DNA of 64,000 nucleotides from Limnovirga soli (GTDB lineage Bacteria > Bacteroidota > Bacteroidia > Chitinophagales > Chitinophagaceae), in the NCBI RefSeq assembly GCF_013106755.1, contig NZ_WHPF01000006.1:248001-312000 (forward strand). The letters run 5' to 3'. A program made the translations under genes and the position numbers. The notes under the pieces were generated by a model that was not told the origin of the DNA, did no database searches, and saw only the letters and a program-made list of their open reading frames with translations. Below, in pieces: positions 41,352 to 63,054 of the stretch (the first letter of the stretch is position 1; every line of letters begins with the position of its first letter).

Positions 41352-42479
41352 TTATTGTACCATTAGTTTTAATGTTTCGTCAATTGCATCGCCTTTTACA
41401 TGCAATATATACATACCTGGTGCAGGCATTTGCTTTAAGCCCAGCGTATATGTTCCATTAGCGGCCACTTGCATGGTTTCGTTATAAACGGTTTTGCCAT
41501 TTAATGCACTTAACACCAAACTTATTTTACCAGCAGTAACATCGTTAATACTTACACGAACAGCATCTTTTACCGGGTTTTGCACAAGATTTACTTTAGA
41601 TAAACCTTGTACCAGCATACGTAAAGATTTTACCTCAGAATTTCTGGACTTTCCATCCATATCGGTTTGTTTAATGCGATAGAAATTGGTACCATTGGCT
41701 GGTGCAATATCTACTGCGCTGTATGCGGTTGGTGTGGAGGTGTTACCGCTGCCCTTTACTTTTGCAACTGAAGTCCAACTTACCCCATCGGTACTGCGTT
41801 CAATATCAAATTGCGCATTATTTTGTTCGGATGCTGTTACCCATTCAATTTTCACCTTATTGCCATCGGGTTTAACGGTAAACTGTGCCAGCTGTATGGG
41901 CAATAAAGAACCGGTAATAAGCGATGGCAATGTTTTGCTAACGGGATAATTAGCCGCATCTACCCTAAAATAATACGTAGTACCCGATTGTAAATTGGCT
42001 GTTGGCTTTATTACATATTCATACTCGGTTTCTTTGTTTTTGGCTACTGTTTGTGCAGGCAATTTTTCTGTAGCCAGAATCATTTTACCTGCTACAAAAG
42101 TGAGTCCTTCGGCAGTAAGTTGATCTGTAGTAGCCTGTAAATCAGTTACATTGGTACTGGTGCCTGCCAATACAAAAGCATTGGTACCAACAGTTAATTT
42201 AATAGTATCCCAATGTGCACCGGGTAAATTACTCGAGTCCTCAAACAAAGCGCCATCCAGCAAACCACCAGCATTTGCCGGATCATTATACAAAACTATA
42301 CGCAGCCTTAATGTTTCCGTTGGACTGGTAATGGTTGGTGTAACATTTTGAGCTGCCATCCAGGTGGCAGTGGTTTGAGAACCATCATCCTTGCGCCAGC
42401 GCCAGCTGCCCTGTGTGGTAAAGGCATACATATTGCTCCAGGCAATGGTAAGCAAAATAATAAGTGTAATTTTTTTCAT
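41352..42479 (-). CDS. Secreted protein with type A T9SS sorting domain
   Basis: 375 residues. The signal peptide (1-19) is followed by an N-terminal beta domain of unknown type (about 20-195). It opens TTQGSWRWRKDDGSQTTATW and contains a Trp-rich strand. An Ig-like segment follows (about 196-285, LPIQLAQFTVKPDG, EWVTASEQNNAQFDIERSTDG). The last about 80 residues (LVQNPVKDAVRVSI, MPAPGMYILHVKG, LKLMVQ) are the type A sorting domain (Por_Secre_tail). The protein is therefore exported by the type IX system and cleaved or anchored at the cell surface. Its function is unknown. Confidence 0.87.
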   Translation of the reverse strand: MKKITLIILLTIAWSNMYAFTTQGSWRWRKDDGSQTTATWMAAQNVTPTITSPTETLRLRIVLYNDPANAGGLLDGALFEDSSNLPGAHWDTIKLTVGTNAFVLAGTSTNVTDLQATTDQLTAEGLTFVAGKMILATEKLPAQTVAKNKETEYEYVIKPTANLQSGTTYYFRVDAANYPVSKTLPSLITGSLLPIQLAQFTVKPDGNKVKIEWVTASEQNNAQFDIERSTDGVSWTSVAKVKGSGNTSTPTAYSAVDIAPANGTNFYRIKQTDMDGKSRNSEVKSLRMLVQGLSKVNLVQNPVKDAVRVSINDVTAGKISLVLSALNGKTVYNETMQVAANGTYTLGLKQMPAPGMYILHVKGDAIDETLKLMVQ

Positions 42480-42605: not shown

Positions 42606-43466
42606 TTAAACATCATAATTTTTAAAACATGCCAATGGCAAACCGGCAACCTTCATATCCATTCTGCTAATATGCCATCTGCCCAGGTTTGCTGCAAACA
42701 ATTGCTTTGCGCCCTTACCCCCAAATGCAATATTGGTGGGGTTGCTTAAAGTATGCGCTTCCCAATCGTAAGATAATACACTAAGATCCTTTTTTGTATT
42801 GGCTATATAAATACAGTTGGGTGCATAGCAGGAAATATACAGGTTTTCCTCACAGTCAAAGGCAATACCATCGGGGCAGCTTTGTAATAGTTTTACATAT
42901 TCTTCCCGTTCGCCAGCCGTACCATCTGCATTAATATTTATACGCTCTACTCCGGGTAACCAGGTGCATACCACATATAGGTATTCTTCATTTTTTGACA
43001 ATGCCATACCGTTGGCAAAATTAAACGGGCCTTTATGCCAAACCACTCCTGTACCATCCTGATTAAAGCAAAATATTTTACCATTAATTTGCCTGAAAGC
43101 ACCACTATCAGACACATATAGTTTACCCTTACTATCAAATACAGCGTAGTTGGGAATACTTAACTGATCTTCACCGGCACCAGTTGTAAAAATTTCCAGC
43201 TGTAAGGTAGCCAATACCAGTTTCCAAATACATTTGTTTTTCAAATCGCAAATGGCCAACCAACTGCAATCGGGCGAAAATGCAATACCTAAAACAAAAC
43301 CACCTGTATTGGCAACTTCTTTTATCACTGCACCATCTTCGCTGATCATATAAATTTGTCCGGCTTCTCCACCGGCCCAAACAGTGCCATTGGGATGCAC
43401 TGCCACACATTCGGGATGATCGAGCCCATCTGCAAAAATTGTTATATTTTCTACCGCTATATCCAT
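42606..43466 (-). CDS. SMP-30/gluconolactonase-family sugar lactonase
   Basis: 286 residues from the Met of MDIAVENITIF (a Met eight codons earlier is possible). A six-bladed propeller of the SMP-30/LRE type: the first-blade GLDHPECVAVHPNG supplies the metal-binding Glu, and later come FDSKGKLYVSDSG, GMALSKNEEYLYV and PDGIAFDCEENLYISC, with the usual Asn and Asp ligands. The family opens aldonolactones to aldonates with Ca2+ or Zn2+. It is the last gene of the carbohydrate locus and fits between the SDR dehydrogenase and the enolase-superfamily dehydratase. No signal peptide is present, so it is cytoplasmic. Confidence 0.87.
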   Translation of the reverse strand: MDIAVENITIFADGLDHPECVAVHPNGTVWAGGEAGQIYMISEDGAVIKEVANTGGFVLGIAFSPDCSWLAICDLKNKCIWKLVLATLQLEIFTTGAGEDQLSIPNYAVFDSKGKLYVSDSGAFRQINGKIFCFNQDGTGVVWHKGPFNFANGMALSKNEEYLYVVCTWLPGVERININADGTAGEREEYVKLLQSCPDGIAFDCEENLYISCYAPNCIYIANTKKDLSVLSYDWEAHTLSNPTNIAFGGKGAKQLFAANLGRWHISRMDMKVAGLPLACFKNYDV

Positions 43467-43545
43467 ATACTCGTTTAAATAATTTTTCAATTATACAATT
43501 AGGCCATTTTTATCCAATTGTATTTTTTGATGCTATTTTGCTACT

Positions 43546-43612: not shown

Positions 43613-44833
43613 TTATTGCTTTAATTTGGCCCAGTTTCGCTCTGGCAACACGCTAAACCAATCTGGCCTTTCCGGGTCGCGGTCGTACTGATAACCACCT
43701 ACTTCTTTATAATATTCCTCGTATTGTTTTAGTTTGTCTCTATCCAGTTCTACACCCAAGCCTGGACCGGTGGGTACAGCAATAGCACCATTTACATATT
43801 GCATTTTACCGCCTTTGATAATATCGTCGGTAACATGATGATAATGTGCATCGGCGGCAAAAGATAAGTTGGGAATGGCCGCACCTAAATGTAACATGGT
43901 AGCCAGTTGAATACCCAATTCGCCGGAGCTGTGCACGGCCACACCAATCTGGAATTTTTCGCATACCACACTTGCTTTCCATGCTTGTCTTAGTCCGCCC
44001 CAAAAAGTAGTGTCGAGCAAGATTACATCAATGGCATTGGTGCGGATGCAGGCAGCTAGCTGCTCAAAGTTTACCACTACGGTATTGGTAGAAGTTGGTA
44101 TTTTAACCATATCTCTTACCCTGCGCATGCCTTCCATGCCCCAGGTAGGATCTTCAAAATAATCGTTGGGCAAATGTTCTATGGCTTTACCAATGCGGAT
44201 AGATTCTTCCACACTCCAGGCAGCATTGGGATCGATTCTAACCTTATGCTTTGGGAATGCGGCCGACAAGGCTTTAAATACTTCCACCTCATGATCGGGA
44301 TGAAAAACACCGGCTTTTAATTTATGCGAGGTAAACCCATATTGTTCTACCAGCTCTTTAGCATGGGCCACAATTTCTTCGGCAGTTTCCTCGCCACCAA
44401 TACCAGTTTGTTCATTTTTATACCGGAAAAAAATATAGGAGGCAAATGGCACAGTTTCGCGAAGGGCGCCGCCCAATAAATCGCAGGCACGCATACCTGT
44501 TTTTTTGCCGATGATATCAATACAGGCGAATTCTATAGCGGCATGCAACTGGGTACGGTTATTATACAATGAAGCAGTGGGGTTACAAATTTTCCAGTAT
44601 AGCGATTCCAGTTGCATGGGATCGTGGCCTATTAAATATTTATTGAGGGCACGAAATGCATTTTCGGCAGACTCTCCGCCGCCGCCCATTTCACCAAGAC
44701 CGGTTATACCCTCATCTGTTTCTACTTCTACAATAGTACGCACAAAACGCCCCCAGTGGCAACCATTGGAATGCCTTATTGGGGCATGCAATGGCATGGC
44801 TACCGTTGTTGCTTTTATGTTTGTTATTTTCAT
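43613..44833 (-). CDS. Enolase-superfamily sugar-acid dehydratase (glucarate dehydratase-like)
   Basis: 406 residues. The N-terminal capping domain (1-130) is followed by a TIM barrel. All catalytic groups of the glucarate-dehydratase pattern can be placed: KxK at Lys171/Lys173, metal ligands Asp201, Glu227 and Asn250, then Asp274 and His301. Asn as the third ligand is the mark of this subgroup, against Glu in mandelate racemase and galactonate dehydratase types. The reaction is loss of water from a sugar acid to give a 2-keto-3-deoxy acid. The capping loops that set the substrate are not readable by eye. It acts after the lactonase encoded next to it. Confidence 0.9.
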
Positions 44834-44906: not shown

Positions 44907-45665
44907 TTATTCTGTGTCCCGTTTACTACCGGCAATGGTAATACCCAACCCGCCATCAATACGAATAGCCTGACCAGTGATAAAACCTGCTTTACTGCTA
45001 CATAAGAAACTAATTAGTTCGGCCACTTCTTCTGGTTTACCAATACGGCCCGCCGGATGCATATCAATACATTCCTGCATTACTGCTTCCGGGTTGGGTG
45101 ATAATGCAATGGCATCGCGTAGCATGGGTGTATCAATTGTTCCCGGGCAAACAGCTACACAACGAATATGCGGCGCATAGTCTACAGCAATACTTCTGGT
45201 AAGCCCCAGCAATGCAGTTTTAGCCGTTGTATAAGCAGCTACATTTTGCTGACTAACAAATGCCTGTACACTACTTACATTTATTATTACCCCACTCCCC
45301 TTTTGCTGCATATAAGGTATTGCATGTTTAGCACATAGGTACTGGCTTTTGAGATTTACATTCATTACCAGATCCCATTCTTCTTCGGCTGTTTCTGTAA
45401 CGTTGCCATAGCGCTGTATACCGGCATTGTTTATCAGCACATCAATACTACCATAACGGTGATGGATGTTAACCATGGCCTGTTTGATATCATTGCTATT
45501 GGCAATATCGCAATGCATAAACAACCATTTATCGTTTATGATACCGCTTGCATCTGCGGTAATATCCAATACGGCCACATTAGCCCCCGCAGCATAAAAA
45601 AGGTGGGCACATGCCAAACCTATTCCCTTGGCACCACCTGTTATTATGATGGTTTTATTAGTCAT
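44907..45665 (-). CDS. Short-chain dehydrogenase/reductase, probable sugar dehydrogenase
   Basis: 252 residues, classical SDR length. TGGAKGIGLACA (8-19) is the cofactor motif. The acidic residue in VAVLDIT, at the end of strand 2, favours NAD. NNAGIQRYG follows. The catalytic triad is Ser in NVSSVQAF plus Tyr/Lys in YTTAKTALLG. CPGTIDTPML and FITGQAIRIDGGLG close the fold. The start codon overlaps the end of the upstream mutarotase-like gene by 8 bp, so the two are translationally coupled. In this locus it would oxidise an aldose to its lactone, ahead of the SMP-30 lactonase. Confidence 0.9.
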   Translation of the reverse strand: MTNKTIIITGGAKGIGLACAHLFYAAGANVAVLDITADASGIINDKWLFMHCDIANSNDIKQAMVNIHHRYGSIDVLINNAGIQRYGNVTETAEEEWDLVMNVNLKSQYLCAKHAIPYMQQKGSGVIINVSSVQAFVSQQNVAAYTTAKTALLGLTRSIAVDYAPHIRCVAVCPGTIDTPMLRDAIALSPNPEAVMQECIDMHPAGRIGKPEEVAELISFLCSSKAGFITGQAIRIDGGLGITIAGSKRDTE

Positions 45666-46746
45666 GTTGATTAAATAAAAAGTTACCTATTTTAAATTGT
45701 TTGGCAGTTTGCATTTCTACCAATATCAATTCATTATTTTCCAAAAGCAATTTTTCAACCCCCAAAAAACCTTGTGGTGGCTGAAAAAGGAAATTACCAT
45801 ATTCACGCAATACTTTTTCGCCAGCATCAATCCAGGATACTGTTGGCTGCCCAAAAACTTGCAAATGATTATTTGCAATGATTTGCTGAAAAGGTTGATG
45901 CAAACCGGTATTACCAAATTCTAGTCCGCGGTATTGCAAATGGCCCTGCTCAAAATGTTGCCATAGATTAATCCAGGGGTATTGTTTACGGGGCCATATA
46001 TAGCCCATTATTAGGTTTTGCTCCGGATTGTACGCTGTAAGCCAGCCAAATTCATCCTGCGGGTTTACAATAAATGAAAAAACAGAATTAAATGGCTGCT
46101 GTGGCTGGCGCAAATCAAAGGCTTCTTCATTTTCAGGCAATGCAATAGTTGGCCAGTGTACGGTATTTGATAAAGGGTCATTTGCATGCATATAGGAAAA
46201 CCCTTCTGTGGCGTTGCATTGAATAACGGTTTCTTTATCTAAAAAGGGAGCACCAATAGTAGGATGCTGCACCATCTGATATAAGCGGCCCAATGTTTTT
46301 ATATTGGTAATTATTTCTGATACATGACAAACAGCTTCGTTGGCATTCATTTCAATTTTACGAAAAACATGCAGGCCCTCTAAGGGTGCCGTTGTATCCA
46401 TTGTAATTACACGTGGATTATTGGTCTCGTAATTTTGCCAGTTTATATTGGCTGGCTGACCATGATTGGGCATGCCTGCTTTTATTTCTCCGGGGGATGC
46501 TTCGCCCCACCTGCCGGCACAAATAAAATGACCCTGATATACCGCACCAGCTTTGTTTTGAGCCGGCATTTGATCCTTTGTAAAACGAAAGGATAATGGA
46601 TTTACCGGATTGCTGAGCAAATGAAAATCGGTAATGGCACCACCATGCAAATCTACCTGCAGCATGGCTATACTGTTTTGTAGTTGAATGCTATTATGGA
46701 TGATGTAGGCTGTCAAAATGTTGTTTTTTTTTTGGTTTTGCCGCAT
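45658..46746 (-). CDS. Galactose-mutarotase-like fold protein, unknown specificity
   Basis: 362 residues from the Met of MRQNQKKNNIL; the frame extends six codons further, to just short of the dispersed element at 46759. The protein is beta rich without a signal peptide. IQLQNSIAMLQVDLHGGAITDFHL, here in two strands, resembles the start of aldose-1-epimerase/DUF4432-type beta-sandwiches. EYGNFLFQPPQGFL and other aromatic strands follow. The catalytic His/Glu pair of galactose mutarotase is not clearly seen, so activity is uncertain. Coupling to the SDR gene suggests it serves the same sugar, for example by supplying the anomer that the dehydrogenase needs. Confidence 0.65.
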   Translation of the reverse strand: MRQNQKKNNILTAYIIHNSIQLQNSIAMLQVDLHGGAITDFHLLSNPVNPLSFRFTKDQMPAQNKAGAVYQGHFICAGRWGEASPGEIKAGMPNHGQPANINWQNYETNNPRVITMDTTAPLEGLHVFRKIEMNANEAVCHVSEIITNIKTLGRLYQMVQHPTIGAPFLDKETVIQCNATEGFSYMHANDPLSNTVHWPTIALPENEEAFDLRQPQQPFNSVFSFIVNPQDEFGWLTAYNPEQNLIMGYIWPRKQYPWINLWQHFEQGHLQYRGLEFGNTGLHQPFQQIIANNHLQVFGQPTVSWIDAGEKVLREYGNFLFQPPQGFLGVEKLLLENNELILVEMQTAKQFKIGNFLFNQHD

Positions 46747-46758
46747 TATGTACCTACA

Positions 46759-46807
46759 GTACAAGAGTGCGACGCAACGGATGTTTAATATGTGTTATTG
46801 AGCAGGG
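46759..46807 (+). repeat. 48-bp dispersed element
   Basis: GTACAAGAGTGCGACGCAAC, GGATG, spacer, GCAGGG. It sits in the 71-bp gap between the mutarotase-like gene and the first propeller gene. Confidence 0.85.
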
Positions 46808-46817
46808 CTCATAATGG

Positions 46818-48032
46818 TTAATATTTTACTGAAATAAATCTTGGCCTTAAATGATAAGGATGTTTAACAATATCATCTAAGAAATCGAATGAATTTACGT
46901 TATAGCTAATCAGCAATTCGCCGGGCTTGGATAAGCTGGGATGCGCTTTGGCATTGTACGTGTAAAAGTCAAGATCGTCGTAGGTTTCTGGTGTATCCCA
47001 TACTTTTTTGGCGGGTTGAAATGGCCCCCATGGTGTAGCACCTGCAGCCACCACAACAGAAGTGGCCGATGTTTTTAACTGGTAAGCAGCAATTACCCGG
47101 CCATCGGGCATAAAGCTTACACTCATTTCGTTGGAAATATTATCGGTTAATGCAGCGCAGCTATGCATATCGGTATTCCAGCCCATTCCATCCCAAAAAC
47201 GCCAGGCGGTAAAATCTTCAAATGCATTATCGGGCACCCTTGCTACCAGCAACTCTTTGCTTAATCCGCGAACCCCATATACATACACATAACCATCGGG
47301 CTTTGGTGCACCTGCACCTTTGGTGTTTGGCAATACACAAATGCCAAAAACGGTTTTGCCCTTTGCATCGGTGAAAAACAAAGGCGTATCAAATTGTTGT
47401 TGATTGGCAAATGGTGGGCGGCTGCCTTTTGGCAAGGCAATTAACGACACGCCAATATCTTCAAACGGATAAATACTACCCGGAATATTTCTAATAAGGT
47501 AGGCAAAAATGTACAGGGTACTATCCATTGCATGATTAAGAAAACCATCTCCCAGCCAGTAATAATTACCCGGTTGTGCTTTTGCCGTATGCGGCTCGAA
47601 CATTGAAATGGGTTTACCGGTACTATCTTTGCGCCAATGATAGGTTATTTTATTGGGGTTGGGTTCATCGCCTGTAAAGTAGGCAATAGAATTATTCATC
47701 ATTTGCCAGGCACCATTCAGGGTATCGGCCTGGGTATCAATATTACCCAATATGCAATCGCTAAACCAAAACATGGTTTCAGAATTGGCATTTAGCTGCC
47801 CCGGTTTATCAACACCATTAAGCGAAGTGCAATAAATACCGTCGGCCCCAATCCAGCCTGTATCGTGGCGCAGCATTTCACTCCATGCAGCCACAGGTTT
47901 TGTAACCAGCCTGGATGCGCTGTATTCGTCATAACCACCAGCTGCAGTTGCTTCCTCACTGTGTTGTGCATTTTGCGTACAACCAGCCATTATAGCAACA
48001 ACCAGTACATAAAATCCAACATTCGTTTTCAT
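46818..48032 (-). CDS. DUF4185/DUF5005-like beta-propeller lipoprotein, paralogue A
   Basis: 404 residues from MKTNVGFYVLVVAIMAGC, a lipoprotein leader; the 24 codons upstream are rejected because they lack a leader and run towards a dispersed element. The family pattern is WIGADGIYCTSLNGVDK (blade 1), MFWFSDCILGN, NYYWLGDGFLNH, LPKGSRPPF, PDGYVYVYGVRG and GELLISYNVNSFDF near the end. It resembles five-bladed propeller glycosidases. It departs from its two paralogues where LFGDTM/LFSDTM becomes WFSDCI. It is probably surface or periplasmic and may bind or cut a polysaccharide. Confidence 0.75.
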   Translation of the reverse strand: MKTNVGFYVLVVAIMAGCTQNAQHSEEATAAGGYDEYSASRLVTKPVAAWSEMLRHDTGWIGADGIYCTSLNGVDKPGQLNANSETMFWFSDCILGNIDTQADTLNGAWQMMNNSIAYFTGDEPNPNKITYHWRKDSTGKPISMFEPHTAKAQPGNYYWLGDGFLNHAMDSTLYIFAYLIRNIPGSIYPFEDIGVSLIALPKGSRPPFANQQQFDTPLFFTDAKGKTVFGICVLPNTKGAGAPKPDGYVYVYGVRGLSKELLVARVPDNAFEDFTAWRFWDGMGWNTDMHSCAALTDNISNEMSVSFMPDGRVIAAYQLKTSATSVVVAAGATPWGPFQPAKKVWDTPETYDDLDFYTYNAKAHPSLSKPGELLISYNVNSFDFLDDIVKHPYHLRPRFISVKY

Positions 48033-48064
48033 ATGCAATCGTTTTTCAAAATACATTTTATTGG

Positions 48065-48112
48065 CCAGGCTTTTGGTTATGTATACAGCATCCTTGCGTC
48101 GCACACTGCAAC
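48065..48112 (-). repeat. 48-bp dispersed element, altered end
   Basis: Minus strand: GTTGCAGTGTGCGACGCAAG (TTGC for TACA), GGATGC, spacer, GCCTGG. The length is still 48 bp. Confidence 0.8.
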
Positions 48113-48184
48113 TTCCGCCTTACTATTGTGCTTTAATACAAAAAGTCCTATATCATAATCCAAACCGGTTGTATAAATTTGTTT

Positions 48185-49666
48185 TTACCAATTATCTGTT
48201 CTAAAAGGTACAGCCGGCAAACCATCTGTATTACCAAAATTGGTAACAGGATAATTGGTATATGCATAACGTACGGCTACAGGTTTCTTTACTTTTTCAC
48301 TGGTTAATACCACCTGATTGTTAACTATTTTTGCATCCGCATAATAAAACTTCTTATCCTCACCCGCTATATAAAAATGGCGAGGTGCGGCTGCATCATT
48401 TGTTTGTAAACCAGCACCTATACTACCAGCTTCAAAGGAAACCTTAACCGTAGCACCAGATACTGAATAACCTTTAAATACAGGACCCAGGAATTGAACA
48501 TTTTTTACATGATAGGTTTTGGATAAGGCATTCCAGGCCAGTCTTTCCCCTACTTCCTTTTTTTGCCGCGGATGAATATCAGCAGGATCTGCTATATCCA
48601 TGGTAACCACCATACCTGTATTTTTCACTTTCAGCACATCCTTCTGTGCATCCCTGAATAAAGCATAGTTATAGGCGGTAGAATCGTTTAATTGCCAGTT
48701 ATAGGGCGCTACCTGTACATAATAAAAAGGCAAATCGCCCTGGTTAAATAATGAACGCCAGTTACCAATCATAGCGCCGCATAAACGTGCATAGATATCC
48801 TGGTTATCCTTATTACTTTCGCCCTGGTACCACAAAAAACCTTTTAATGATATATTTCTTAATGGATAAATCATGGAGTTATACAGCAAGGTTGGTCGAG
48901 TAAGTTTTTCAAAAGTTACCACAGAATCAAGTGGTTCTCTTGCAGCGGCACTGGTATCGTAAGCATACAATATTTTATTTAGTGCTTCATCCGCAGCCAG
49001 GGTTTCACGGCTTGTCCAGGCCTGACAGGTAGTAGCGCCAATTGATGAAGTAATTAACCCCACAGGAACATGCAGACGGTTCATTAATTCGCGGCCAAAA
49101 TAATATGCCACTGCACTAAAGTCTTTTGCGTTATCTGGGGTACAAATTTTCCAATCGCCTTTGCATCTTTCAACAGGCATTTTCTTAAAGTCTGACTTAA
49201 TATCCCATAAGCGAATTTGCGGATAATTTGCAGCCGCTATTTCCTTTTCATAATCCATTACACCCTGAAGCCAGGGTAAAAATGGTTTTAATTCCATATC
49301 CATATTTGATTGGCCACTGCATAGCCAAACTTCGCCAATTAATACATCCGACAACACCTGTTTTTCTGTATTGGTATAAACTTCAATAGTATGTGGTGTA
49401 TAATTATTTTCTGCTACTGCAGGCACTTCAATTGAAACCTGCCAATTACCATCTGCGCCAGCTTTGGCAGTATACAGTTTTTTACTCCAGTCGGGTTTAA
49501 TGTGTATTTCAGTTCCCATGGTGGCGGTACCCCAATAAATCATTGGTTTGGCCTGCTGAATAACCATACTGCTTTGCAAACCATTTCCCAACTGTAAGCC
49601 AGTTTGAGCCTGCAGAAAAAGTGCAGGCATTAAAAACAACAGGAAACTTACCAGATACTTTTTCAT
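48185..49666 (-). CDS. Sialate O-acetylesterase-like SGNH esterase
   Basis: 493 residues. The signal peptide (1-20) ends FLQAQ. A beta domain (about 22-105) is followed by the SGNH hydrolase core, with the nucleophile Ser120 in LCSGQSNM. FLWYQGESN is block III, and ADIHPRQKKEVGERLA carries the catalytic Asp/His (DxxH). It closes with a C-terminal beta domain. The family removes O-acetyl groups from sialic acid or other acetylated glycans. Its start codon overlaps the stop of the upstream propeller gene by one base (TAATG), so the pair is coupled. Here it would deacetylate the glycan handled by the propeller proteins. Confidence 0.92.
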   Translation of the reverse strand: MKKYLVSFLLFLMPALFLQAQTGLQLGNGLQSSMVIQQAKPMIYWGTATMGTEIHIKPDWSKKLYTAKAGADGNWQVSIEVPAVAENNYTPHTIEVYTNTEKQVLSDVLIGEVWLCSGQSNMDMELKPFLPWLQGVMDYEKEIAAANYPQIRLWDIKSDFKKMPVERCKGDWKICTPDNAKDFSAVAYYFGRELMNRLHVPVGLITSSIGATTCQAWTSRETLAADEALNKILYAYDTSAAAREPLDSVVTFEKLTRPTLLYNSMIYPLRNISLKGFLWYQGESNKDNQDIYARLCGAMIGNWRSLFNQGDLPFYYVQVAPYNWQLNDSTAYNYALFRDAQKDVLKVKNTGMVVTMDIADPADIHPRQKKEVGERLAWNALSKTYHVKNVQFLGPVFKGYSVSGATVKVSFEAGSIGAGLQTNDAAAPRHFYIAGEDKKFYYADAKIVNNQVVLTSEKVKKPVAVRYAYTNYPVTNFGNTDGLPAVPFRTDNW

Positions 49667-50901
49667 TATGGCAATAATTTAAGTTTTATAAATCTTGGTC
49701 GGTATAAATCGGGATACAGTTTTATTTCATTAAAAAAATCAAATGAATTAACATTATAACTAATCAGCAATTCGCCAGGCTTTGAAAAGCAAGGGAATGC
49801 TTTTGCATTGTAAGCAAATACGTTTTTGGATATTTTTTTCACATCGCTGCAATTCCATATGTTTATCACTTTTCCAAATGGGCCATAAGGCGTTTTGCCT
49901 AAGCGTAAGCCAACATAATCGCTAATTCCATTTACCTGAAATACCATAGCATAACGCCCATCCGGCAAGGGAGATACGCTTAATTCATTGGAAGCACTAT
50001 CTGTAATATTTGCTACGGTATTAATATCCGCACTCCATGCCTTGCCATCAAAAAAGCGCCACTCGTTAAATTGTTTAAATGCCTTTGGGGTAACTCTTGC
50101 AACCATTACATTTTTTGCTTTACCACGCATGCCATACACATATATATAACCATCCGGATTTGGTGCACCTGCGGCTTTGGTATTTACAAATATGCCCGCC
50201 CCAAATGAGGCATAATCATTCGCTGAATCAGAAGTGCCTTTTATATAAAAAGGTGTTTGTGTTTGGGTAAATTCTTTAAAAGGAGGTTTGCTTCCTTTGG
50301 GTATTTCAATCAGCACATTACCTACATCTGTAAATCCCCAGTCGGTTGTACCTGTATTACGAATAGTATAGGCAAATGCAAATAAACTACTGTCTAATTC
50401 GGTATTTACAAAACCATCGCCCAACCAAAAAATATCCCCCTTTATGGTTGAAGGCAAATTAGGGGAAAAGATGGTAGCAGGTTGATTGCTTTCGTCTTTG
50501 GCAAATTCAAAAGAAATATTGCCTGGGCTGGGTGTATTGCCTTTTAAAATGGCCACAGAATTACGCACCATGCTAAAACCAGGCTGCAGGGAATCCTGTA
50601 CAATATCTCCAATCATAGTATCGCCAAAAAGGAATAGTGTTTTAGCTGTATCATTACTTACGAAGGTATCTACGCCATTCAATGGAATGGCAAAAATGCC
50701 ATCGCCCCCAAACCATCCATGTTCCCGTTTAAATAGGGCTGTCCATTCAGGTGCCTCGCTAACAGTGAATTTTAGCGAATCAAGGTTATTGGCAATATCT
50801 GTTTGGGAAGGTGAGTTTGTATTGCATGCAGCAAAAAATAACAGGCCAACAAGACCAGCTATTTTGAATAAGCCATTTTGTATACAATACTTTTTTTGCA
50901 T
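49666..50901 (-). CDS. DUF4185/DUF5005-like beta-propeller lipoprotein, paralogue B
   Basis: 411 residues. The lipoprotein leader ends GLLFFAAC. It is aligned end to end with paralogue C at 50930: APEWTALFKREHGWFGGDGI, LFLFGDTMIGDIV, SMVRNSVAILKGN, FWLGDGFVNTELD, PKGSKPPF, NPDGYIYVYGMRG, SNELSVSPLPDGRYAMVFQV, TPYGPFG, ELLISYNVNSFDF. The DG of GGDGI, the D of FGDTM and the conserved Glu of NELS are candidate active-site acids by analogy with propeller hydrolases. It is the middle gene of the set, coupled to the esterase downstream. Confidence 0.8.
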   Translation of the reverse strand: MQKKYCIQNGLFKIAGLVGLLFFAACNTNSPSQTDIANNLDSLKFTVSEAPEWTALFKREHGWFGGDGIFAIPLNGVDTFVSNDTAKTLFLFGDTMIGDIVQDSLQPGFSMVRNSVAILKGNTPSPGNISFEFAKDESNQPATIFSPNLPSTIKGDIFWLGDGFVNTELDSSLFAFAYTIRNTGTTDWGFTDVGNVLIEIPKGSKPPFKEFTQTQTPFYIKGTSDSANDYASFGAGIFVNTKAAGAPNPDGYIYVYGMRGKAKNVMVARVTPKAFKQFNEWRFFDGKAWSADINTVANITDSASNELSVSPLPDGRYAMVFQVNGISDYVGLRLGKTPYGPFGKVINIWNCSDVKKISKNVFAYNAKAFPCFSKPGELLISYNVNSFDFFNEIKLYPDLYRPRFIKLKLLP

Positions 50902-50929
50902 AGTAGCGCCTATGTTGATATTTTATTAT

Positions 50930-52132
50930 TTATTGTAAAGTGAGCCTTAAAAAGCGCGGACGATAAAAATTATTGTGATTATTAACATCGTTCCAGAAAT
51001 CAAAGGAACCCACATTATAGCTAATCAGCATTTCGCCAGGTTTTGATAAGCTGGGATGCACTTTGGCATTATAAACAATAAAATTCTTTCCTTCCTTTTG
51101 TTCTGTGCATTCCCAAATTTTAATGATGGGGCCAAAGGGGCCATAAGGAGTTGTAGACAATCTTAAGCCCACTGCTGTACCAATACCATCAGTTTGAAAA
51201 ACCATGGCATAGCGGCCATCAGGTAAAGGTGTTACACTTAATTCGTTAGATGCACGATCTGCAATAGTGGCAGATTTTAAAATATCAGTTTGCCAGGTAG
51301 TCCCATCCCAATATCTCCATTTGGAAAAATCTTCGAAATTGCCTGGTTTTACCCTTGACACCATCACTTTTTTATTATCACCACCAACACCATATACATA
51401 TACATATCCATCTGGGTTAATAGCGCCGGCATCTTTGGTATTTGGGAAAATAGCAGACCCGAAAGAAATATAATTATTGGGATATTTTGCGGTATTATCT
51501 ACCGCATAAATGGGCGCATCAACTTGCTGTTGATTGGTATAGGGTGGTTTACTGCCCTTTGGTAAAATAATTAAAGCATTACCCACCTGTTGAAAAAGAA
51601 AAGCATTATCTGCCGTATCTCTTACCCTATAGCAAAAAATATAGGTTTTATCGTTTAGGGAATGATTTACAAAACCATCGCCCAGCCAATAATAATCGCC
51701 CTCTTTGGCATTGGGCGTATTGGGAACAAAAAAAGAACCTTCATTTCTGCTGGCAGTTTTTTTCCAGGTGAACTTTATATTTTCTTCAATGGGTTCGAAG
51801 CCTTTTAATAATGCCACAGAATTATGCACCATAATAAAACCGGGTTTGGGCCGATCGTTTACGATATCACCCAACATGGTATCGCTAAAAAGTATGGTTG
51901 TTTCGATGCTGCTATCAGCTTTATCTACTCCATTGGAAGGAACGGCAAAAATGCCATCGGCACCAAACCAGCCTGATGTACGGTTTAGCAAATTTGTCCA
52001 CTCCGGGGCAGGAGCGATGGTATATTTTAATGTGGTAATATCGGTATTGGTAACTATTGCATGTTTGGCACCACTACAGGAAAATAAGCCAGCGGCTGCA
52101 ATTATGTATAGCCAGTTTGTGTTTTTTTTCAT
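50930..52132 (-). CDS. DUF4185/DUF5005-like beta-propeller lipoprotein, paralogue C
   Basis: 400 residues from the Met of MKKNTNWLYIIAAAGLFSC, a lipoprotein leader with lipobox LFSC. It has the same blades as paralogue B: WFGADGIFAVPSNGVDK, TILFSDTMLGDIV, YYWLGDGFVNHSL, LPKGSKPPY, NPDGYVYVYGVGG, SNELSVTPLPDGRYAMVFQT, TPYGPFGP and EMLISYNVGSFDF. B and C are clearly closer to each other than to A. It follows a lipoprotein gene by 49 bp and precedes B by 28 bp, so the four genes from the lipoprotein to the esterase look like one transcript. Confidence 0.8.
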   Translation of the reverse strand: MKKNTNWLYIIAAAGLFSCSGAKHAIVTNTDITTLKYTIAPAPEWTNLLNRTSGWFGADGIFAVPSNGVDKADSSIETTILFSDTMLGDIVNDRPKPGFIMVHNSVALLKGFEPIEENIKFTWKKTASRNEGSFFVPNTPNAKEGDYYWLGDGFVNHSLNDKTYIFCYRVRDTADNAFLFQQVGNALIILPKGSKPPYTNQQQVDAPIYAVDNTAKYPNNYISFGSAIFPNTKDAGAINPDGYVYVYGVGGDNKKVMVSRVKPGNFEDFSKWRYWDGTTWQTDILKSATIADRASNELSVTPLPDGRYAMVFQTDGIGTAVGLRLSTTPYGPFGPIIKIWECTEQKEGKNFIVYNAKVHPSLSKPGEMLISYNVGSFDFWNDVNNHNNFYRPRFLRLTLQ

Positions 52133-52181
52133 TGAAAAATTTTTAGTTATGCGCAATTAAAATTTCATCCAAGTTCTTGAT

Positions 52182-52979
52182 TTAATACGCATCATAAGTA
52201 TACTTAAATAACTCCTCTTCCCCTAATCCAAATACTGAAAGATCGAGGGTTATTTCCAGTACCATTCTATCTTTCGTTAGAGAAATCACTTTATATACTT
52301 CAGTTGTTACGTTGGCCGGATTAAATATGGAATAATAGGTTCTTGTGAAGGTTTTTTCATCTTCACTTAATGTCCATTTAGAGAAAATATTAAACCCGTC
52401 AAACAGGCAACCTGAAGCTCCATAATTTACACTCATGGTACTATCGCGGTTAAAGGTCCAAATATCATCCTTACCACATTCCTGCAGGCTTTCTTCGGGT
52501 GGAGTGGCCGTTTCCCATAAGTTGGAACTGATTTTCCAGGGATGCGATGCAATAATTTGGGCACCTGAAGCAATAGTATTCACTGTTAAGTCTTTTTCGG
52601 CCGCTTTACCTTTTGCATCTTCTATCCTGTAATTAAAGCCAACCAGTTTATCCACCTCATTATCCTGAAGGGTATAGCTAAAGGGATATTCAAAGGTATT
52701 TTGTCCATCGGCGATGGTAGTTACTTTTAATATTCCATTGGTGCCCCAGCTACTATCTATTTTGAGGTTAATTGTTTTGGAAATATAAAAATTCTTTACA
52801 CCATTTTGAACTGTACCGGATAATACAGTAGATACATTAAAGCCTGATTTACCACTTACATTTTCTGGCGTAAGTTTTAAAACAGGTAAATCAGTTTCGG
52901 GCTTGTCCTTTTTACAGCCAAAGAACAATACTGAAGTGCAAAGTGAAACTGCAGTAAGAATGATTAAAGACTTTTTCAT
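52182..52979 (-). CDS. Lipoprotein of unknown function, possibly glycan binding
   Basis: 265 residues. The leader MKKSLIILTAVSLCTSVLFFGC has lipobox FFGC. The first half (about 30-130) is an Ig-like or cadherin-like beta-sandwich (LKLTPENVSGKSGFNV, FNYRIEDAKGKAAEKDLTV). The second half (about 145-262) resembles lipocalin-like/DUF5004-type modules of Bacteroidota (IIASHPWKISSNLW, DDIWTFNRDSTMSVNYG, ISLTKDRMVLEI). In sus-like loci such small lipoproteins are often SusE/SusF-like glycan binders. The position fits, but the sequence gives no direct proof. Confidence 0.65.
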   Translation of the reverse strand: MKKSLIILTAVSLCTSVLFFGCKKDKPETDLPVLKLTPENVSGKSGFNVSTVLSGTVQNGVKNFYISKTINLKIDSSWGTNGILKVTTIADGQNTFEYPFSYTLQDNEVDKLVGFNYRIEDAKGKAAEKDLTVNTIASGAQIIASHPWKISSNLWETATPPEESLQECGKDDIWTFNRDSTMSVNYGASGCLFDGFNIFSKWTLSEDEKTFTRTYYSIFNPANVTTEVYKVISLTKDRMVLEITLDLSVFGLGEEELFKYTYDAY

Positions 52980-53078
52980 TTTCGTTAGATTTATCGCTAC
53001 TATTTTTGATGACAGTTGCGTTTATTAAAAGATGTTATTCCCCGGCATTGGCTGTTAACAGCTGCTATACTTGTTGCC

Positions 53079-53138: not shown

Positions 53139-54518
53139 TTATTTATTGTTTACAGATGCTTCATGTGCCTTCCAGAAATCCTGAATTTCCTCTAATGTTT
53201 TCTCCTTTGTTTCAGGTACCATTTTCCAAACAAACAAGAATGCGCCAATAGCCATCAGCATATAAATCCAGAAGGTAAATGCATTGCCTATGGAACCCAT
53301 TAAAATGGGGAATGTTTGAGATACGAGAAATACTGCTGACCACAACACAAAAACGGCAACAGACATGGCGGTACCCCTTGCTTTGGTTGGAAAAATTTCG
53401 GCAATTACCACAAATGTTAAAGGGCCTAATGAGGTAGCAAAACAAGCGATATAACCCAGGATAGCGATTAGTACCAGATAGCCTTTTTGCATTTCGAAGT
53501 AAAATGCGGAACCTACCGCCAGTAGGCATATGGCCATACCTGCAATACCGATTAATAATAAGGCTTTACGGCCCAGTTTATCTACATACCTGATAGCCAC
53601 CAGTGTAAACGCTACATTGATGATACCCACCAATACTGTTTGCATTAATGCGGAGTTGGAACCATCGCCGGTAGATTTAAAAATTTCAGGTGCGTAATAC
53701 ATTATGGCATTGATACCGGTAACCTGCGAAAAAATGGCCAACACCACACCGATAAATAAGGCGCGCCTTAAGCCTGGTTTCATCATTTCGGCCAGTGTGA
53801 GTGAGGTATCATCGGCAAGGGAGGCGTTGATTTCTGCGAGCTCCTGATTGGCTTTTTCCTGTCCGTTTATTTTGGTAAGGATATCCAGTGCTTCTTCATT
53901 TCTTTTTTGTTTGGCCAACCAGCGGGGGCTTTCGGGAACAGTGAATAACAAGAGTACAAAAATGACTGATGGAATTAAGCCGGAGCCAAACATATACCGC
54001 CAGCCGGTGGTGATATTCCATGCTTCGTTATACATGCCTGCAATGCCTGCGTTTACAAAGTAAATGAGGAGAATACCCGTTACCACACCCAGCTGAAAAA
54101 CGGCAATTAATTTACCACGTATATCAGCCGGTGCCATTTCGGAAATATACATAGGAGATAGCATGGAAGCAATACCGATGCCCATACCACCAATTAACCG
54201 AAATACAACAAAAAAAGTAAGATTAGGTGGCATTGCCGTACCTACTGATGAAATGGCAAATAATAATGCTGAAAGCATTAGTACTTTTTTACGGCCAACT
54301 ATATCGCTTAATTTACCGGCATACATGGCGCCTGCCACACAACCCAGTAAGGCACAGGATGCCACCCAACCCGTCATAGCATCCGATAGGGCATAATAGG
54401 TTTTCATAAACCCAATTGCACCGGCTATTACAGCAGTATCGTAGCCAAATAATAATCCACCTACTGCTGCTACCAAAGTAGCTTTATAAATGTACCAGTT
54501 ACTTCTGTTTTGTTGCAT
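53139..54518 (-). CDS. MFS sugar/H+ symporter (sugar porter family)
   Basis: 459 residues from the ATG at 54518, five bases after the stop of the isomerase gene; the longer frame would overlap that gene. Twelve membrane segments. Sugar-porter signatures are GGLLFGYDTAVIAGAIG, DIVGRKKVLML (the loop 2-3 motif), RLIGGMGIGIASMLSPMYISE, PESPRWL, QVTGINAIMYY and VPETKEKTLEEI. The order and QxTGINAxxYY match XylE-type H+ symporters. It carries the monosaccharide released in the periplasm across the inner membrane, probably to the ROK kinase encoded upstream. Confidence 0.94.
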   Translation of the reverse strand: MQQNRSNWYIYKATLVAAVGGLLFGYDTAVIAGAIGFMKTYYALSDAMTGWVASCALLGCVAGAMYAGKLSDIVGRKKVLMLSALLFAISSVGTAMPPNLTFFVVFRLIGGMGIGIASMLSPMYISEMAPADIRGKLIAVFQLGVVTGILLIYFVNAGIAGMYNEAWNITTGWRYMFGSGLIPSVIFVLLLFTVPESPRWLAKQKRNEEALDILTKINGQEKANQELAEINASLADDTSLTLAEMMKPGLRRALFIGVVLAIFSQVTGINAIMYYAPEIFKSTGDGSNSALMQTVLVGIINVAFTLVAIRYVDKLGRKALLLIGIAGMAICLLAVGSAFYFEMQKGYLVLIAILGYIACFATSLGPLTFVVIAEIFPTKARGTAMSVAVFVLWSAVFLVSQTFPILMGSIGNAFTFWIYMLMAIGAFLFVWKMVPETKEKTLEEIQDFWKAHEASVNNK

Positions 54519-54523
54519 GCTTT

Positions 54524-56299
54524 TTAGTTTATACGTAGATTTTCTAATTTTTCTGTTCGTACAGATGCCTTCATGGTGGCGCATTCTGTACCTATACTTT
54601 CACCATAAGGGGTGATGGTATATTCCCCAACATGGGCAGGTACAATAAAAGTTTCTGCATAATGAATGATAAAGGGAGCAAATGCATTGGTTGGACTTTC
54701 TACCACCGCCTCCCTGCCTTCAATTAGGTTAAGGATATTTACACCACCCTGTGTATTGTGAGTTACTTTTTTGGTAAACCAGGTGCGGGTGGTTTCAATA
54801 AATGAATCTGCATCCAAACCGGTTTGCTCCTCTCTCCAGCCATCGCCACTGCCAACAGGTTTAACCAGATTTAGAATATGTTCTTTGGTCCAGGAAGTAG
54901 TACGGTTCCACTGAATAACATTTTTACCATGTTCCAATGAAATGGGGCGAGGCTTACCATCTAAACCCATGCGGCCCCAATCCCATAGTTTAAAAGTGAA
55001 AATATATGGCGTGGCACTTATCTCCAATACCACGGTATTAGCACCGGAACAATGCACGGTACCAGATGGTATAGACACATGGTCGTGCTTTTTAACCTGC
55101 CATTTTTGTACGTACTTTTCTGCATCAAACTGTTCGCCATTATTTTGAACAGCTTCCAGTTCGGCAATCATTTGTTCTGGCACAATGTTCTCCTGTATAC
55201 CCAGGTAAACAAAGGCCTCATCCTTGGCATCCAGAAAATAATAGCTTTCATCCTGGGTATATGCCATCCCAAATTTGTCTTTAATGTATTGTTTTAAAGG
55301 ATGCACCTGCAAGCTTAAATTGCCGCCTTCCATGGTATCGAGAAAATCGAAACGTATGGGGAACTCATCACCAAAAAAATCATATACTTCTTTCCCCAGT
55401 AAGGCTGCAGGTTGAAAAAACACCAGGTTTACAGATGGCATTTCCATTACTTCATTTTGGAAGCGGAGTAGCAAACTATTTTCTTCGGGCACACAATCAA
55501 AACCCCAGGCAAAATTTTGTTCACTTCTGTCTAAATCACAAACCTCTTTTAGCCATTGGCCACCCCATGGACCCGGATCGAAAAAAGGAACTACCCTGAA
55601 TGGAGTAGCAATTAACTGTGCCATAGCATCTTTAAATGCAGCCGCATCTATCATTTTAGGGTTTTCCTCTATGGTAGTATCCAGAAAAAAATTGATATTG
55701 TTATACTGTTGTTTTTTATGCTTATCGCATACACGCCAGTCTACAAAATAGGCATGTTTGTATTTATAGGAAAACGCATCGGTTTTATTATTCCTACCAA
55801 TATTGGCTACTTTATTTCTTCTAAAGCGCAGCTGAATTTCCCAGCGGGGCATATCAGCATATACCATTATATCTGCTGCCGGACAAAGTACCGTTGCACC
55901 GGTACCTATTACAATAATCAGCCCTTCTTTAATACTATTTATTTTATCTGCACAGGCAGCCAGTTTTACAGTATCAAAATAATCACCCATCTCCAGTGAA
56001 GTGATAATACCAAACACGGGATCATCGGTAACAAATGGCTGCACCATGGTGGCAATGGCTATTTCATCCTTCAGGGCAGCGGTTGATTCTATCAGAATTA
56101 CCGGTTGTAATTCTTTTCTTAGATGGGCAATAAGCTCTTTGGTATATACACCATGGTAACATTCCACCGCACAAATAACTTTTGACTTATGCGTGTTTTG
56201 AATTGCCAATTTTAGTTGACCAAGCACCGCATCCCAGCCGGCATAGCAATGATGCCCCTGTATTTCAACTTCCGGAAATTTATCGTAATTCGATTTCAT
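54524..56299 (-). CDS. Mannose-6-phosphate isomerase fused to an N-terminal kinase-like domain
   Basis: 591 residues, against about 320-390 for an ordinary isomerase. Residues about 218-585 are a class I cupin phosphomannose isomerase: FFDPGPWGGQWLKE, the zinc ligands Gln331 and His333 in LSLQVHP, Glu351 in DESYYFL, and a further His in IPSGTVHCSGA. Residues 1-212 look like a uridine-kinase-type P-loop domain in which the Walker A is lost: ECYHGVYTKEL (46-56) stands where GxxGxGKT is expected. The isomerase interconverts mannose-6-P and fructose-6-P. The N-domain may be regulatory. It is in an operon with ROK (14 bp upstream) and the symporter. Confidence 0.88.
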   Translation of the reverse strand: MKSNYDKFPEVEIQGHHCYAGWDAVLGQLKLAIQNTHKSKVICAVECYHGVYTKELIAHLRKELQPVILIESTAALKDEIAIATMVQPFVTDDPVFGIITSLEMGDYFDTVKLAACADKINSIKEGLIIVIGTGATVLCPAADIMVYADMPRWEIQLRFRRNKVANIGRNNKTDAFSYKYKHAYFVDWRVCDKHKKQQYNNINFFLDTTIEENPKMIDAAAFKDAMAQLIATPFRVVPFFDPGPWGGQWLKEVCDLDRSEQNFAWGFDCVPEENSLLLRFQNEVMEMPSVNLVFFQPAALLGKEVYDFFGDEFPIRFDFLDTMEGGNLSLQVHPLKQYIKDKFGMAYTQDESYYFLDAKDEAFVYLGIQENIVPEQMIAELEAVQNNGEQFDAEKYVQKWQVKKHDHVSIPSGTVHCSGANTVVLEISATPYIFTFKLWDWGRMGLDGKPRPISLEHGKNVIQWNRTTSWTKEHILNLVKPVGSGDGWREEQTGLDADSFIETTRTWFTKKVTHNTQGGVNILNLIEGREAVVESPTNAFAPFIIHYAETFIVPAHVGEYTITPYGESIGTECATMKASVRTEKLENLRIN

Positions 56300-56313: not shown

Positions 56314-57258
56314 TTATTCATTTGTTACCAGATAGCCTGCACCCAATAAAGCCGCAGCATCAGGGTAGCTGGCTGATTCAATTTTTACTTTACCCCAGGG
56401 CGTCCATGCATGTGCATCGGTTTTTTGTTGCAGGTAAGGAATAATATAACTGCTGCTGGCCATAATGCCACCCGATACCAATACCATTTCAGGATCATAC
56501 GCATGAATAAGGTTTATAGCACAGGCTGCCCAAACATCCAGACTTTCGTCGCGCATTTGCTTAGCTAAAAAATCTTCTTCATTAGCCAGTCTGAAAATGG
56601 ATTCAAAATCAATTAAACATTCATTGGCCAATGTGCTGGCAGCAAATGCGGGATGTGCTTTTACTTTTGCACCGATACTCCAGGTAGCGGCTTCTGTTTC
56701 TACACAACCTGTATTACCGCAGTTACAAACAGTTCCTTTATAATTTATTACGCTATGGCCACCCAAAATACCAGCGGTAAAATGTTTGCCTCTTAATAAT
56801 TTACCTTCTATAACGGCCGAGCTTCCAACACCTGTACCCAGGGTGATTAATACCACATTATCCACGGCTTTAGCCTTACCAAATTTCCATTCGCCAATTA
56901 AGGCAGTACGGGCATCGTTTTCTATTGCCAGCGTTAATCCCAGGGCGTTGGTACACCAGCTTTCAAAATCAATACCCGGTGCATCGCCAAATTTTTTATC
57001 TATGGAAAGAATGCGTTTTTGCACACTGTCTACAATGCCCGGCACAGCCATACCCACACCTGCAATATCTGTTACCGTTAAATTTTGTTGTGCCAGTAAT
57101 GCTTGTATGGCGGCCGCAACAAAGGGAAGGCGCTCCTGCAAACCATTGCCAGAATGGGCATCAATGGCAGTTCCGGCCAATATAGTATTGCCCTGTACCA
57201 GACCAATTTTTATTTTGGTACCACCCAAGTCAATAGCGATTGCAGGTTTGTTAATCAT
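56314..57258 (-). CDS. ROK-family sugar kinase (glucokinase/fructokinase/mannokinase type)
   Basis: 314 residues. The N-terminal phosphate-binding AIDLGGTKIKIGLV and the catalytic Asp in IENDARTALIGEW are present. LGTGVGSSAV follows. The ROK zinc site is GGHSVINYKGTVCNCGNTGCVE, here in two parts: a His and three Cys. No DNA-binding domain is present, so it is a kinase and not a NagC-type repressor. Because a mannose-6-P isomerase follows 14 bp later, mannose is a likely substrate, though glucose or fructose cannot be excluded. It is separated from SusD by 204 bp that contain an inverted element pair. Confidence 0.93.
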   Translation of the reverse strand: MINKPAIAIDLGGTKIKIGLVQGNTILAGTAIDAHSGNGLQERLPFVAAAIQALLAQQNLTVTDIAGVGMAVPGIVDSVQKRILSIDKKFGDAPGIDFESWCTNALGLTLAIENDARTALIGEWKFGKAKAVDNVVLITLGTGVGSSAVIEGKLLRGKHFTAGILGGHSVINYKGTVCNCGNTGCVETEAATWSIGAKVKAHPAFAASTLANECLIDFESIFRLANEEDFLAKQMRDESLDVWAACAINLIHAYDPEMVLVSGGIMASSSYIIPYLQQKTDAHAWTPWGKVKIESASYPDAAALLGAGYLVTNE

Positions 57259-61900: not shown

Positions 61901-62069
61901 TAGCTGTATTAGTGCCCTTAATTTGCACGGTAACACCTGCCAAACCTGTACCCGTTTCTGCGGTAACTTTACCGGTTATTTTCTTACCATTTTGCGCAAT
62001 AGCCCATGTGGAGAAAAAGATGGCAAAACAAACTAATGCCAACAACTTAATAAGATGTAGTTTTTTCAT
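58959..62069 (-). CDS. SusC/RagA-family TonB-linked outer-membrane transporter
   Basis: 1036 residues, usual length. The signal peptide (1-25) ends AIAQ. The carboxypeptidase-regulatory-like domain (about 29-110) is followed by the SusC signature VVVGYGTVKKSDLTGSV, the plug (about 115-240, with SIRIRGTTSINAGNEPLYVVDG in two strands and IYGSRGANGVVIITTKRG), and the barrel to the final GINAGF. There is no N-terminal STN domain, so it is not of the type controlled by an ECF sigma/anti-sigma pair; the adjacent GntR gene fits that. With SusD it imports oligosaccharides into the periplasm. Confidence 0.97.
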   Translation of the reverse strand: MKKLHLIKLLALVCFAIFFSTWAIAQNGKKITGKVTAETGTGLAGVTVQIKGTNTATTTNENGNFSITVASDAATLVLSYVGYIKQEIALKNKSTVEITLQPEKNELSQVVVVGYGTVKKSDLTGSVVSVKADELKAVPATSFDQALQGRAAGVQVTTLSGKPGAETSIRIRGTTSINAGNEPLYVVDGMLISSDGGDMSTGVTLGPRIGPLSAINPNDIESIEILKDASATAIYGSRGANGVVIITTKRGRTGKGTVTLDSYYGVQTIANKVEVLNAAQFANLVNDAKINANQTPVYVNPKNLGEGTDWQDAVLRTAPMANYQLSFSGGDEKTKYSITGSYFTQDGIIQSSDFKRYSFRSNLDREVSKRLTVGTSITYARVTSNGVLTNAGTIVPGVVTDALLFNPILPVYDSTVTGGYTFENDRGKVLGNPVAEVNKYNSYSVSSRFLGNMYAKYKLLEGLEFKTSFGIDAFSSKENSYAPYYLKRAQASKGEASIGTVQGMTWLNENTLTYTHQAKNGNALTVLGGFTVQQFQNESLFAYAFDFPDDRTGYHSLAAALNPQKPFNNESQWSLVSFLGRVNYTVQDKYLFTLTGRSDGSSKFAEGNKYGYFPSGAFAWRVSKEKFMEPVKFISDLKLRASYGAIGNQAIAPYQSLALVGPYGEGVFNSSQGSEPYAGREPLSYVNKNLKWETTKQLDIGLDLSMFKNRVTITADYYHKKTVDLLLSTPIPTTSGFTSTLLNIGNIENKGFDFDIKTINTTGVVRWNTSINISINKNEITNLNSSTDIPLFGGIILRKGESIGTFYGYIFDGIFQSDAEAASSPVLVGQEQTSSNPASRAKAGDRKYRDINGDGKITSDDRTLLGSAQPDFTWGLNNTISFQNLDFSFFFQGSQGNKLANYNTFDLQNFTGQNNVLAEAGLNRWTPENPSNKYPRALSSGSLDVGVFSSNIVEDASYIRLKNVTLAYRLPYSILKKTGIQNLKLYAGATNLWTHTKYTGYDPEANTYGQSTTLIGIDLGGYPQTTTYTIGINAGF

Positions 62070-63023: not shown

Positions 63024-63041
63024 ACCCGGAATTTTGTTCAT

Positions 63042-63054
63042 ATGTTCATACATA
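63042..63054. promoter_or_regulatory. Candidate GntR autoregulatory operator
   Basis: TATGTTCATACATA (63041-63054) has perfect 5-bp arms, TATGT and ACATA, around TCAT, and repeats the 13 bp found before susC. A TATATTTG box on the minus strand at 63090-63083 (TAnnTTTG) lies 30-40 bp upstream of it and is a possible -7 element. Binding here would give autorepression. Confidence 0.5.

Follow-up and report, generated by a model that had tools for sequence, protein, structure and literature searches.

The stretch of DNA analysed here (the window) spans 64,000 nucleotides of the Limnovirga soli genome (NCBI RefSeq assembly GCF_013106755.1, contig NZ_WHPF01000006.1, positions 248,001 to 312,000) and carries on its minus strand a single locus, running from 62283 to 41352 in the numbering of the window, with a GntR gene at its head and a gene for a 375-amino-acid (aa) protein at its far end. 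Between these lie, in order, genes for SusC, SusD, a ROK kinase, a homologue of mannose-6-phosphate isomerase (PMI), an MFS porter, a lipocalin-like protein, paralogues C and B, a SASA esterase, paralogue A, a DUF4432-like protein, and SDR, MR/MLE and SMP-30 lactonase enzymes. A Pfam scan of 12 locus proteins (42606-57258) found no glycoside hydrolase (GH) family other than DUF4185 above cut-off, which bears out the statement of a first-pass annotation that the locus has no recognisable GH family. The subject of this analysis is the three paralogous lipoproteins:

50930..52156, minus strand: paralogue C, DUF4185 propeller lipoprotein, 408 aa from a TTG start, with an alternative ATG at 52132 (Pfam, AF2 model, alignments)
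49666..50901, minus strand: paralogue B, DUF4185 propeller lipoprotein, 411 aa (Pfam, alignments)
46818..48104, minus strand: paralogue A, DUF4185 propeller lipoprotein, 428 aa from a GTG start, with an alternative ATG at 48032 (Pfam, AF2 model, tree)

Family membership and predicted fold

A, B and C are complete open reading frames that share 40-51% pairwise identity, and each has a lipobox-like N-terminus, in agreement with their earlier description as three lipoproteins of one family. Of the two names then offered for that family, DUF4185 stands, with scores of 51.4 (A), 46.2 (B) and 52.4 bits (C) that all exceed the Pfam gathering cut-off of 39.5, and is the better one, because the DUF5005 cut-off (29.6 bits) is cleared by C alone, and barely (30.0 bits), A scoring 19.5 bits and B giving no match in Pfam. 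Far from the window, the same genome encodes two more distant DUF4185/DUF5005-like proteins (L065 and L066; G000:C34), both under the DUF4185 cut-off, one of which clears that of DUF5005 (61.6 bits).

Structural models (AF2) of C and A, built from alignments of the window proteins with proteins of 80 related loci (L067-L146), are confident (predicted local distance difference test, pLDDT, 92.6 and predicted template modelling score, pTM, 0.89 for C; 89.5 and 0.86 for A). The best structural match of both is BACOVA_04882 (4hbs), a “putative hydrolase” of Bacteroides ovatus (VIA Z 34.2 for C, 33.9 for A), and the next is the GH183 endo-D-arabinanase EndoMA1 (8hhv/8ic1), which matches C with Z 27.9 over 298 residues at 3.3 Å and A with Z 28.0 over 299 residues at 3.2 Å, at 13-17% identity across the structural match. 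Below these two, other propellers form a plateau at Z 18-20, upon which the truncated AraH2 entry 8an0 also falls (Z 19.4 and 20.3). The five-bladed propellers of GH43, GH62, GH32, GH68 and GH130 have the general fold in common with A, B and C at this level (Z about 18-20); their catalytic acids are differently arranged, according to passages of PMC10509167. Influenza neuraminidases, placed among the general propellers by Foldseek alone (E ~1e-6), were taken as fold background. The beta-propeller proposed earlier is thus supported by the models of C and A, which have the fold of GH183, and the three proteins can be assigned firmly, on Pfam scores and, for C and A, on predicted structure, to the five-bladed beta-propellers of the DUF4185/GH183 superfamily.

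A different activity on this fold, for example that of a deacetylase, lyase or lactonase, appears highly improbable. A propeller N-acetylgalactosamine deacetylase (6n1b) does match the A model (Z 18.4), but it lies on the general-propeller plateau, ten units under EndoMA1, and the conserved residues are those of a retaining glycosidase.

Conservation of predicted catalytic residues

In EndoMA1, Asp33, Asp51 and Glu243 are essential, and the D33N, D51N and E243A/Q mutants are nearly inactive, as described in passages of PMC10509167. The EndoMA1 positions were read via alignment to L150, a closely related sequence; in the D51N entry, position 51 is Asn. The predicted counterparts, all on the minus strand, are:

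C: D67 (51956-51958), D92 (51881-51883), E305 (51242-51244)
B: D67 (50701-50703), D94 (50620-50622), E306 (49984-49986)
A: D88 (47841-47843), D116 (47757-47759, followed by Cys), E326 (47127-47129)

Asp51 and Glu243 of EndoMA1 coincide with these acids in five of five MAFFT runs. Within the family, the Asp of the GxDG motif and that of F(S/G)D occur in 130 of 130 members in two MAFFT runs and in 129 of 130 in a third, the Glu of the SNE motif in 123 of 130, and the counterpart of EndoMA1 Tyr293 in all 130.

Three observations count against the assignment. Asp33 of EndoMA1 falls on the invariant family Asp in three of five MAFFT runs, the other two misplacing it because the GH183 N-terminus is shifted; hhalign aligned the C-terminal 100 columns alone, with the N-terminal Asp region outside; and 4hbs, which shares both Asp residues with A, B and C, has Ser where they have the third acid, Glu. 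A bridge for Asp33 is nevertheless provided by 4hbs, which gives a full-length match to the family profile (9e-30) and shares the EndoMA1 Asp-Asp spacing of 18, whereas in the window proteins C, B and A the two Asp lie 25, 27 and 28 residues apart, respectively. A, B and C also differ from the GH183 endo-D-arabinanases (EndoMA1, DgGH4185a/b) in that Arg198 and Trp138, with which EndoMA1 holds its D-arabinan, are replaced in two alignment runs, the alignment near position 138 being less sure; both residues are retained in the close GH183 relatives L150 and L153.

The first-pass annotation had considered a hydrolase role credible should the proteins belong to DUF4185, and had proposed structure prediction with comparison of the acids. 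The family, the GH183-type hydrolase fold of the C and A models and the acids kept in the alignments all favour such a role, and A, B and C are, on this comparison of sequences, probably active retaining glycosidases. It is very unlikely that they are instead non-catalytic propellers that bind glycan and present it to SusC/SusD. The occurrence of three lipoprotein paralogues in one locus would suit that function, as would the presence of a GH92 enzyme in many related loci, but proteins that only bind need not keep both Asp and the Glu to the extent seen here, and the clade containing A is conserved as much as the others.

Two types of paralogue

Paralogue A had been thought to lack the DT of the F(G/S)DT motif, and hence to be a binding protein or to have a changed activity. 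Its motif is FWFSDC, in which the Asp is retained and Thr alone is changed, to Cys. In 123 close homologues, the position that follows the second Asp is occupied by T (60), S (54), C (7), G (1) or N (1); FSDC was rejected as a mark of lost activity given this alternation of T, S and C. The notion of a degenerate copy that has become a binding protein is similarly contradicted by the presence of all three acids (D88, D116 and E326) and by the placement of A in a clade of 22 sequences with strong support (SH-aLRT 98; the tree program warns of a long outgroup branch joining nearby). Members of the clade come from Chitinophagaceae, Cytophagales and Cyclobacteriaceae-type loci, and in several families of Bacteroidota they stand beside a paralogue of the C/B type. 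Since two ancient types have been retained together, we infer that A and B/C represent two specificities rather than decay. Of the 19 loci that carry a PMI or MFS gene, 15 include an A-type gene; the idea that A and GH92 exclude one another in these 19 (both in 4, A only in 11, GH92 only in 3, neither in 1) was dropped, the sample being too small and too related.

Other genes of the locus

The remaining genes of the locus are:

62283..63053, minus strand: GntR-type regulator (recognised from sequence; homologues head the locus in relatives)
58959..62069, minus strand: SusC-like TonB-dependent porin (recognised from sequence; homologues in the same order in relatives)
57463..58944, minus strand: SusD-like lipoprotein (recognised from sequence; in the whole genome PF07980 matches here, at G000:C56:305466-305951)
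56314..57258, minus strand: ROK sugar kinase (Pfam ROK, 169 bits)
54524..56299, minus strand: PMI homologue, C-terminal half (phmmer match to 1qwr, 6.4e-9, residues 303-457)
53139..54584, minus strand: MFS sugar porter (Pfam Sugar_tr, 420 bits)
52182..52979, minus strand: lipocalin-like lipoprotein adjoining the propellers (Pfam Lipocalin_4, 28.6 bits, cut-off 22.4; homologue in 15 of 80 loci)
48185..49666, minus strand: SASA-type carbohydrate esterase, between A and B (Pfam SASA, 68.1 bits)
45658..46764, minus strand: DUF4432-like (aldose-epimerase-like) protein (27.1 bits, under the cut-off of 32.5)
44907..45665, minus strand: SDR aldose-dehydrogenase-like enzyme (NCBIfam NF005007, 285 bits, under the cut-off of 341)
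43613..44833, minus strand: MR/MLE-type (enolase superfamily) candidate sugar-acid dehydratase (Pfam MR_MLE_C, 186 bits)
42606..43490, minus strand: SMP-30/gluconolactonase-type lactonase (Pfam SGL, 71.9 bits)
41352..42479, minus strand: 375-aa protein, probably type-IX-secreted, that accompanies the locus (orthologues in 6 distinct other genomes)

The lipocalin-like lipoprotein is a possible glycan-binding partner of the propellers. At position 49666, the ATG of the esterase shares one base with the B stop codon, which points to translational coupling.

Neighbourhoods of related propellers

A scan of 84,980 species gave 517 pattern matches and 502 relatives, of which the best 80, the nearest relatives of the window proteins, make up loci L067-L146; 26 of these 80 stretches are shorter than 20 kb. 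A GH92 alpha-mannosidase is encoded in 38 of the 80 loci, in 35 of which no more than 2.5 kb separates it from the propeller (GH92 was identified by Pfam in L048, L044 and L104, and elsewhere by blastp). As a control, GH92 occurs within 10 kb of SusD in 4 of 68 generic SusD genes among the matches listed from six related genomes, in one of which 6 of the 7 GH92 genes are known. Two types of locus bear GH92, that of the window and a Mucilaginibacter type whose SusC/SusD are dissimilar (25-36%). In relatives within the family of the window locus, GH92 follows a single propeller (L048 and L044 by Pfam; L049, L052 and L055 by eye). Other mannoside enzymes near propellers are GH38 (L110, L057, L107) and GH130 (L102), and GH2 genes are also found near some propellers of these four loci. 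Taken together, the neighbourhoods provide good but uneven evidence for a mannose context.

An Lgt-like gene, of the prolipoprotein diacylglyceryl transferase family (PF01790, 99.5 bits in L104:8826-10001), is present in 31 of the 80 loci, 27 of them from Mucilaginibacter; in 29 of the 31 it is the gene immediately upstream of the propeller.

The hint at arabinan that was first drawn from GH183 is a misfit with these neighbourhoods; mannose fits them, though not in every relative. It seems quite unlikely that A, B and C are true GH183 endo-D-arabinanases acting on actinobacterial arabinogalactan or lipoarabinomannan, with the mannose genes serving the mannan part of the latter. Lipoarabinomannan does contain both D-arabinose and mannose, EndoMA1 is the best characterised relative by sequence and by fold, and two GH172-type genes are present elsewhere in the Limnovirga soli genome. 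Against this, the neighbours in propeller loci are GH92, PMI and ROK rather than GH172; a blastp search (E 1e-6) aimed at GH172, not GH116, gave no match in 111 stretches around homologues, overlapping and continuation stretches included (seeds, two DUF2961 proteins of the Limnovirga soli genome); and the locus contains no recognisable isomerase or kinase for D-arabinose. D-arabinan is therefore an unlikely substrate, given this absence of GH172 and the replacement of Arg198 and Trp138, and an arabinan locus is likewise unlikely.

Possible sugar use inside the cell

Two sets of genes in the locus could serve the use of mannose within the cell. The PMI homologue matches 1qwr over part of its length (6.4e-9), and could act with the ROK kinase. 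The closest NCBIfam model to the SDR enzyme is an “aldose dehydrogenase” (NF005007), and its best solved relatives are 3vtz and 2dtd, the latter of which we take to be AldT of Thermoplasma acidophilum. AldT converts mannose to mannonolactone, after which mannonate dehydratase and 2-keto-3-deoxygluconate (KDG) aldolase follow, according to parts of PMC6901390. In the related locus L053, a UxuA-type mannonate dehydratase stands beside the propellers together with an SDR enzyme, a DUF4432-like protein and a lactonase, a set that suggests mannonate. The Limnovirga soli genome encodes a 2-keto-3-deoxy-6-phosphogluconate (KDPG)-type aldolase on the same contig, beyond the window, and a UxuA elsewhere.

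Cellular site

The residues that follow the lipobox Cys are TQNAQHSE in A, NTNSPSQT in B and SGAKHAIV in C, as compared with KKDKPETD in the lipocalin-like protein and KKFLTEDP in SusD. In type-1 loci, the mean number of acidic residues after this Cys is 1.0 for A, 1.3 for B/C, 3.1 for the lipocalin type and 2.6 for SusD, a few rows being pattern errors. Export signals of surface lipoproteins in Bacteroidota are acidic, as stated in passages of PMC5080379. Because acidic residues are few after the Cys and 37 of 123 homologues lack a lipobox by a crude pattern, periplasmic action of the propellers is at least as likely as action at the surface, where depolymerases, as the three were first labelled, would work as endo-enzymes, and the residues themselves are suggestive of the periplasmic face.

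Proposed function and relation to known systems

The locus may be read as a system in which A, B and C are exported retaining propeller glycosidases of the DUF4185/GH183 superfamily that release sugar from a mannose-containing, probably acetylated glycan, a reading to which we assign a probability of about 0.5. By homology, the Asp of GxDG would be the nucleophile, that of F(S/G)D the acid/base, and the Glu of SNE a third essential carboxylate. SusC/SusD would carry the glycan across the outer membrane, the SASA esterase would strip acetyl groups from the glycan or an oligosaccharide derived from it, and A, B and C would free sugar from the same material, to be moved into the cell by the MFS porter. 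Mannose could then be used by phosphorylation, through the ROK kinase and mannose-6-phosphate isomerase, or by oxidation, through the SDR enzyme, the lactonase and the dehydratase, followed by the KDPG-type aldolase encoded elsewhere in the genome.

Several features of the locus and its relatives weigh against mannose as the sugar. Among the 38 loci with GH92, 29 are from Mucilaginibacter (29 of the 35 loci of that genus); outside it, GH92 occurs in nine of 45 loci, in eight of 15 genus-level groups, a weak excess over the control (Fisher p 0.03, the rows not being independent). GH92 is missing from 42 of the 80 loci, including those of Cyclobacterium (6), Chitinophaga (6) and eight of nine from Pedobacter. 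By Pfam, the 12 scanned proteins of the window locus include no GH92, GH38, GH76, GH99 or GH125, and the single GH92 of the genome lies elsewhere. At 1e-4, Pfam gives no family for the PMI homologue, and the MR/MLE enzyme comes closer to the glucarate dehydratases (best NCBIfam model glucarate dehydratase, 165 bits, far under its cut-off; best PDB match 3vc5), with no assignment to mannonate. Neighbours of GH43 and rhamnosidase-like type in L087 and L108 speak against any single sugar. In Pedobacter psychroterrae (L143:13020-18162), a propeller adjoins a galactonate-type set comprising a lactonase, a KDPG-type aldolase, an MR/MLE enzyme and a 2-keto-3-deoxy-galactonokinase (DGOK).

These last three loci would suit active glycosidases that work on a glycan containing mannose and cleave from it a furanoside or a side group other than mannose, letting mannosidases proceed. 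Known members of the superfamily cut furanosides, according to parts of PMC10115798 and PMC10509167, and a second mannosidase would be partly redundant where GH92 stands beside the propeller, as it often does. The scanned proteins of the window locus, however, include no specific gene for another sugar, and this explanation seems unlikely, if less so than arabinanase activity.

Alpha-mannan and N-glycan loci of Bacteroidota that contain GH92 combine SusC/SusD with alpha-mannosidases and genes for mannose use. The window locus differs from these in having propellers in place of alpha-mannosidases. Release of mannose by the propellers themselves is a more specific proposal, and a tentative one: the clade would be a new kind of mannoside-cleaving retaining hydrolase, in which the pocket of the GH183 scaffold has been rebuilt from D-arabinofuranose to mannose and types A and B/C replace GH92 in loci like that of the window. 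A search of the open-access literature for DUF4185 with mannan returned work on GH183 arabinanases alone, most subscription literature lying outside that search.

DUF4185 proteins are named after the degradation of mycobacterial arabinan. The clade described here is widespread in Bacteroidota of soil, plants and water and combines the same catalytic acids with other binding residues and mannoside neighbours. If the proposed function is true, a large share of DUF4185 is misannotated when automatically labelled endo-D-arabinanase, and the breakdown of mannose glycans gains an enzyme overlooked by present catalogues; if the pocket has indeed been rebuilt for mannose, the GH183 superfamily is wider than a family of arabinanases.

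Downstream end of the locus

The locus seems to reach further downstream than at first drawn, to the gene for the 375-aa protein (41352-42479), an orthologue of which stands alongside in the six other genomes. The type IX sorting tail of this protein scores 24.4 bits, under the cut-off of 27, and that of its orthologue in L073 scores 41.5 bits. Its residues 1-190 share 39% identity (7e-29) with the N-terminal part of another Limnovirga soli protein (L065:6168-8456), which also bears CBM_4_9 and a DUF4185-like propeller and thereby provides a fusion link between such propellers and the 375-aa protein.

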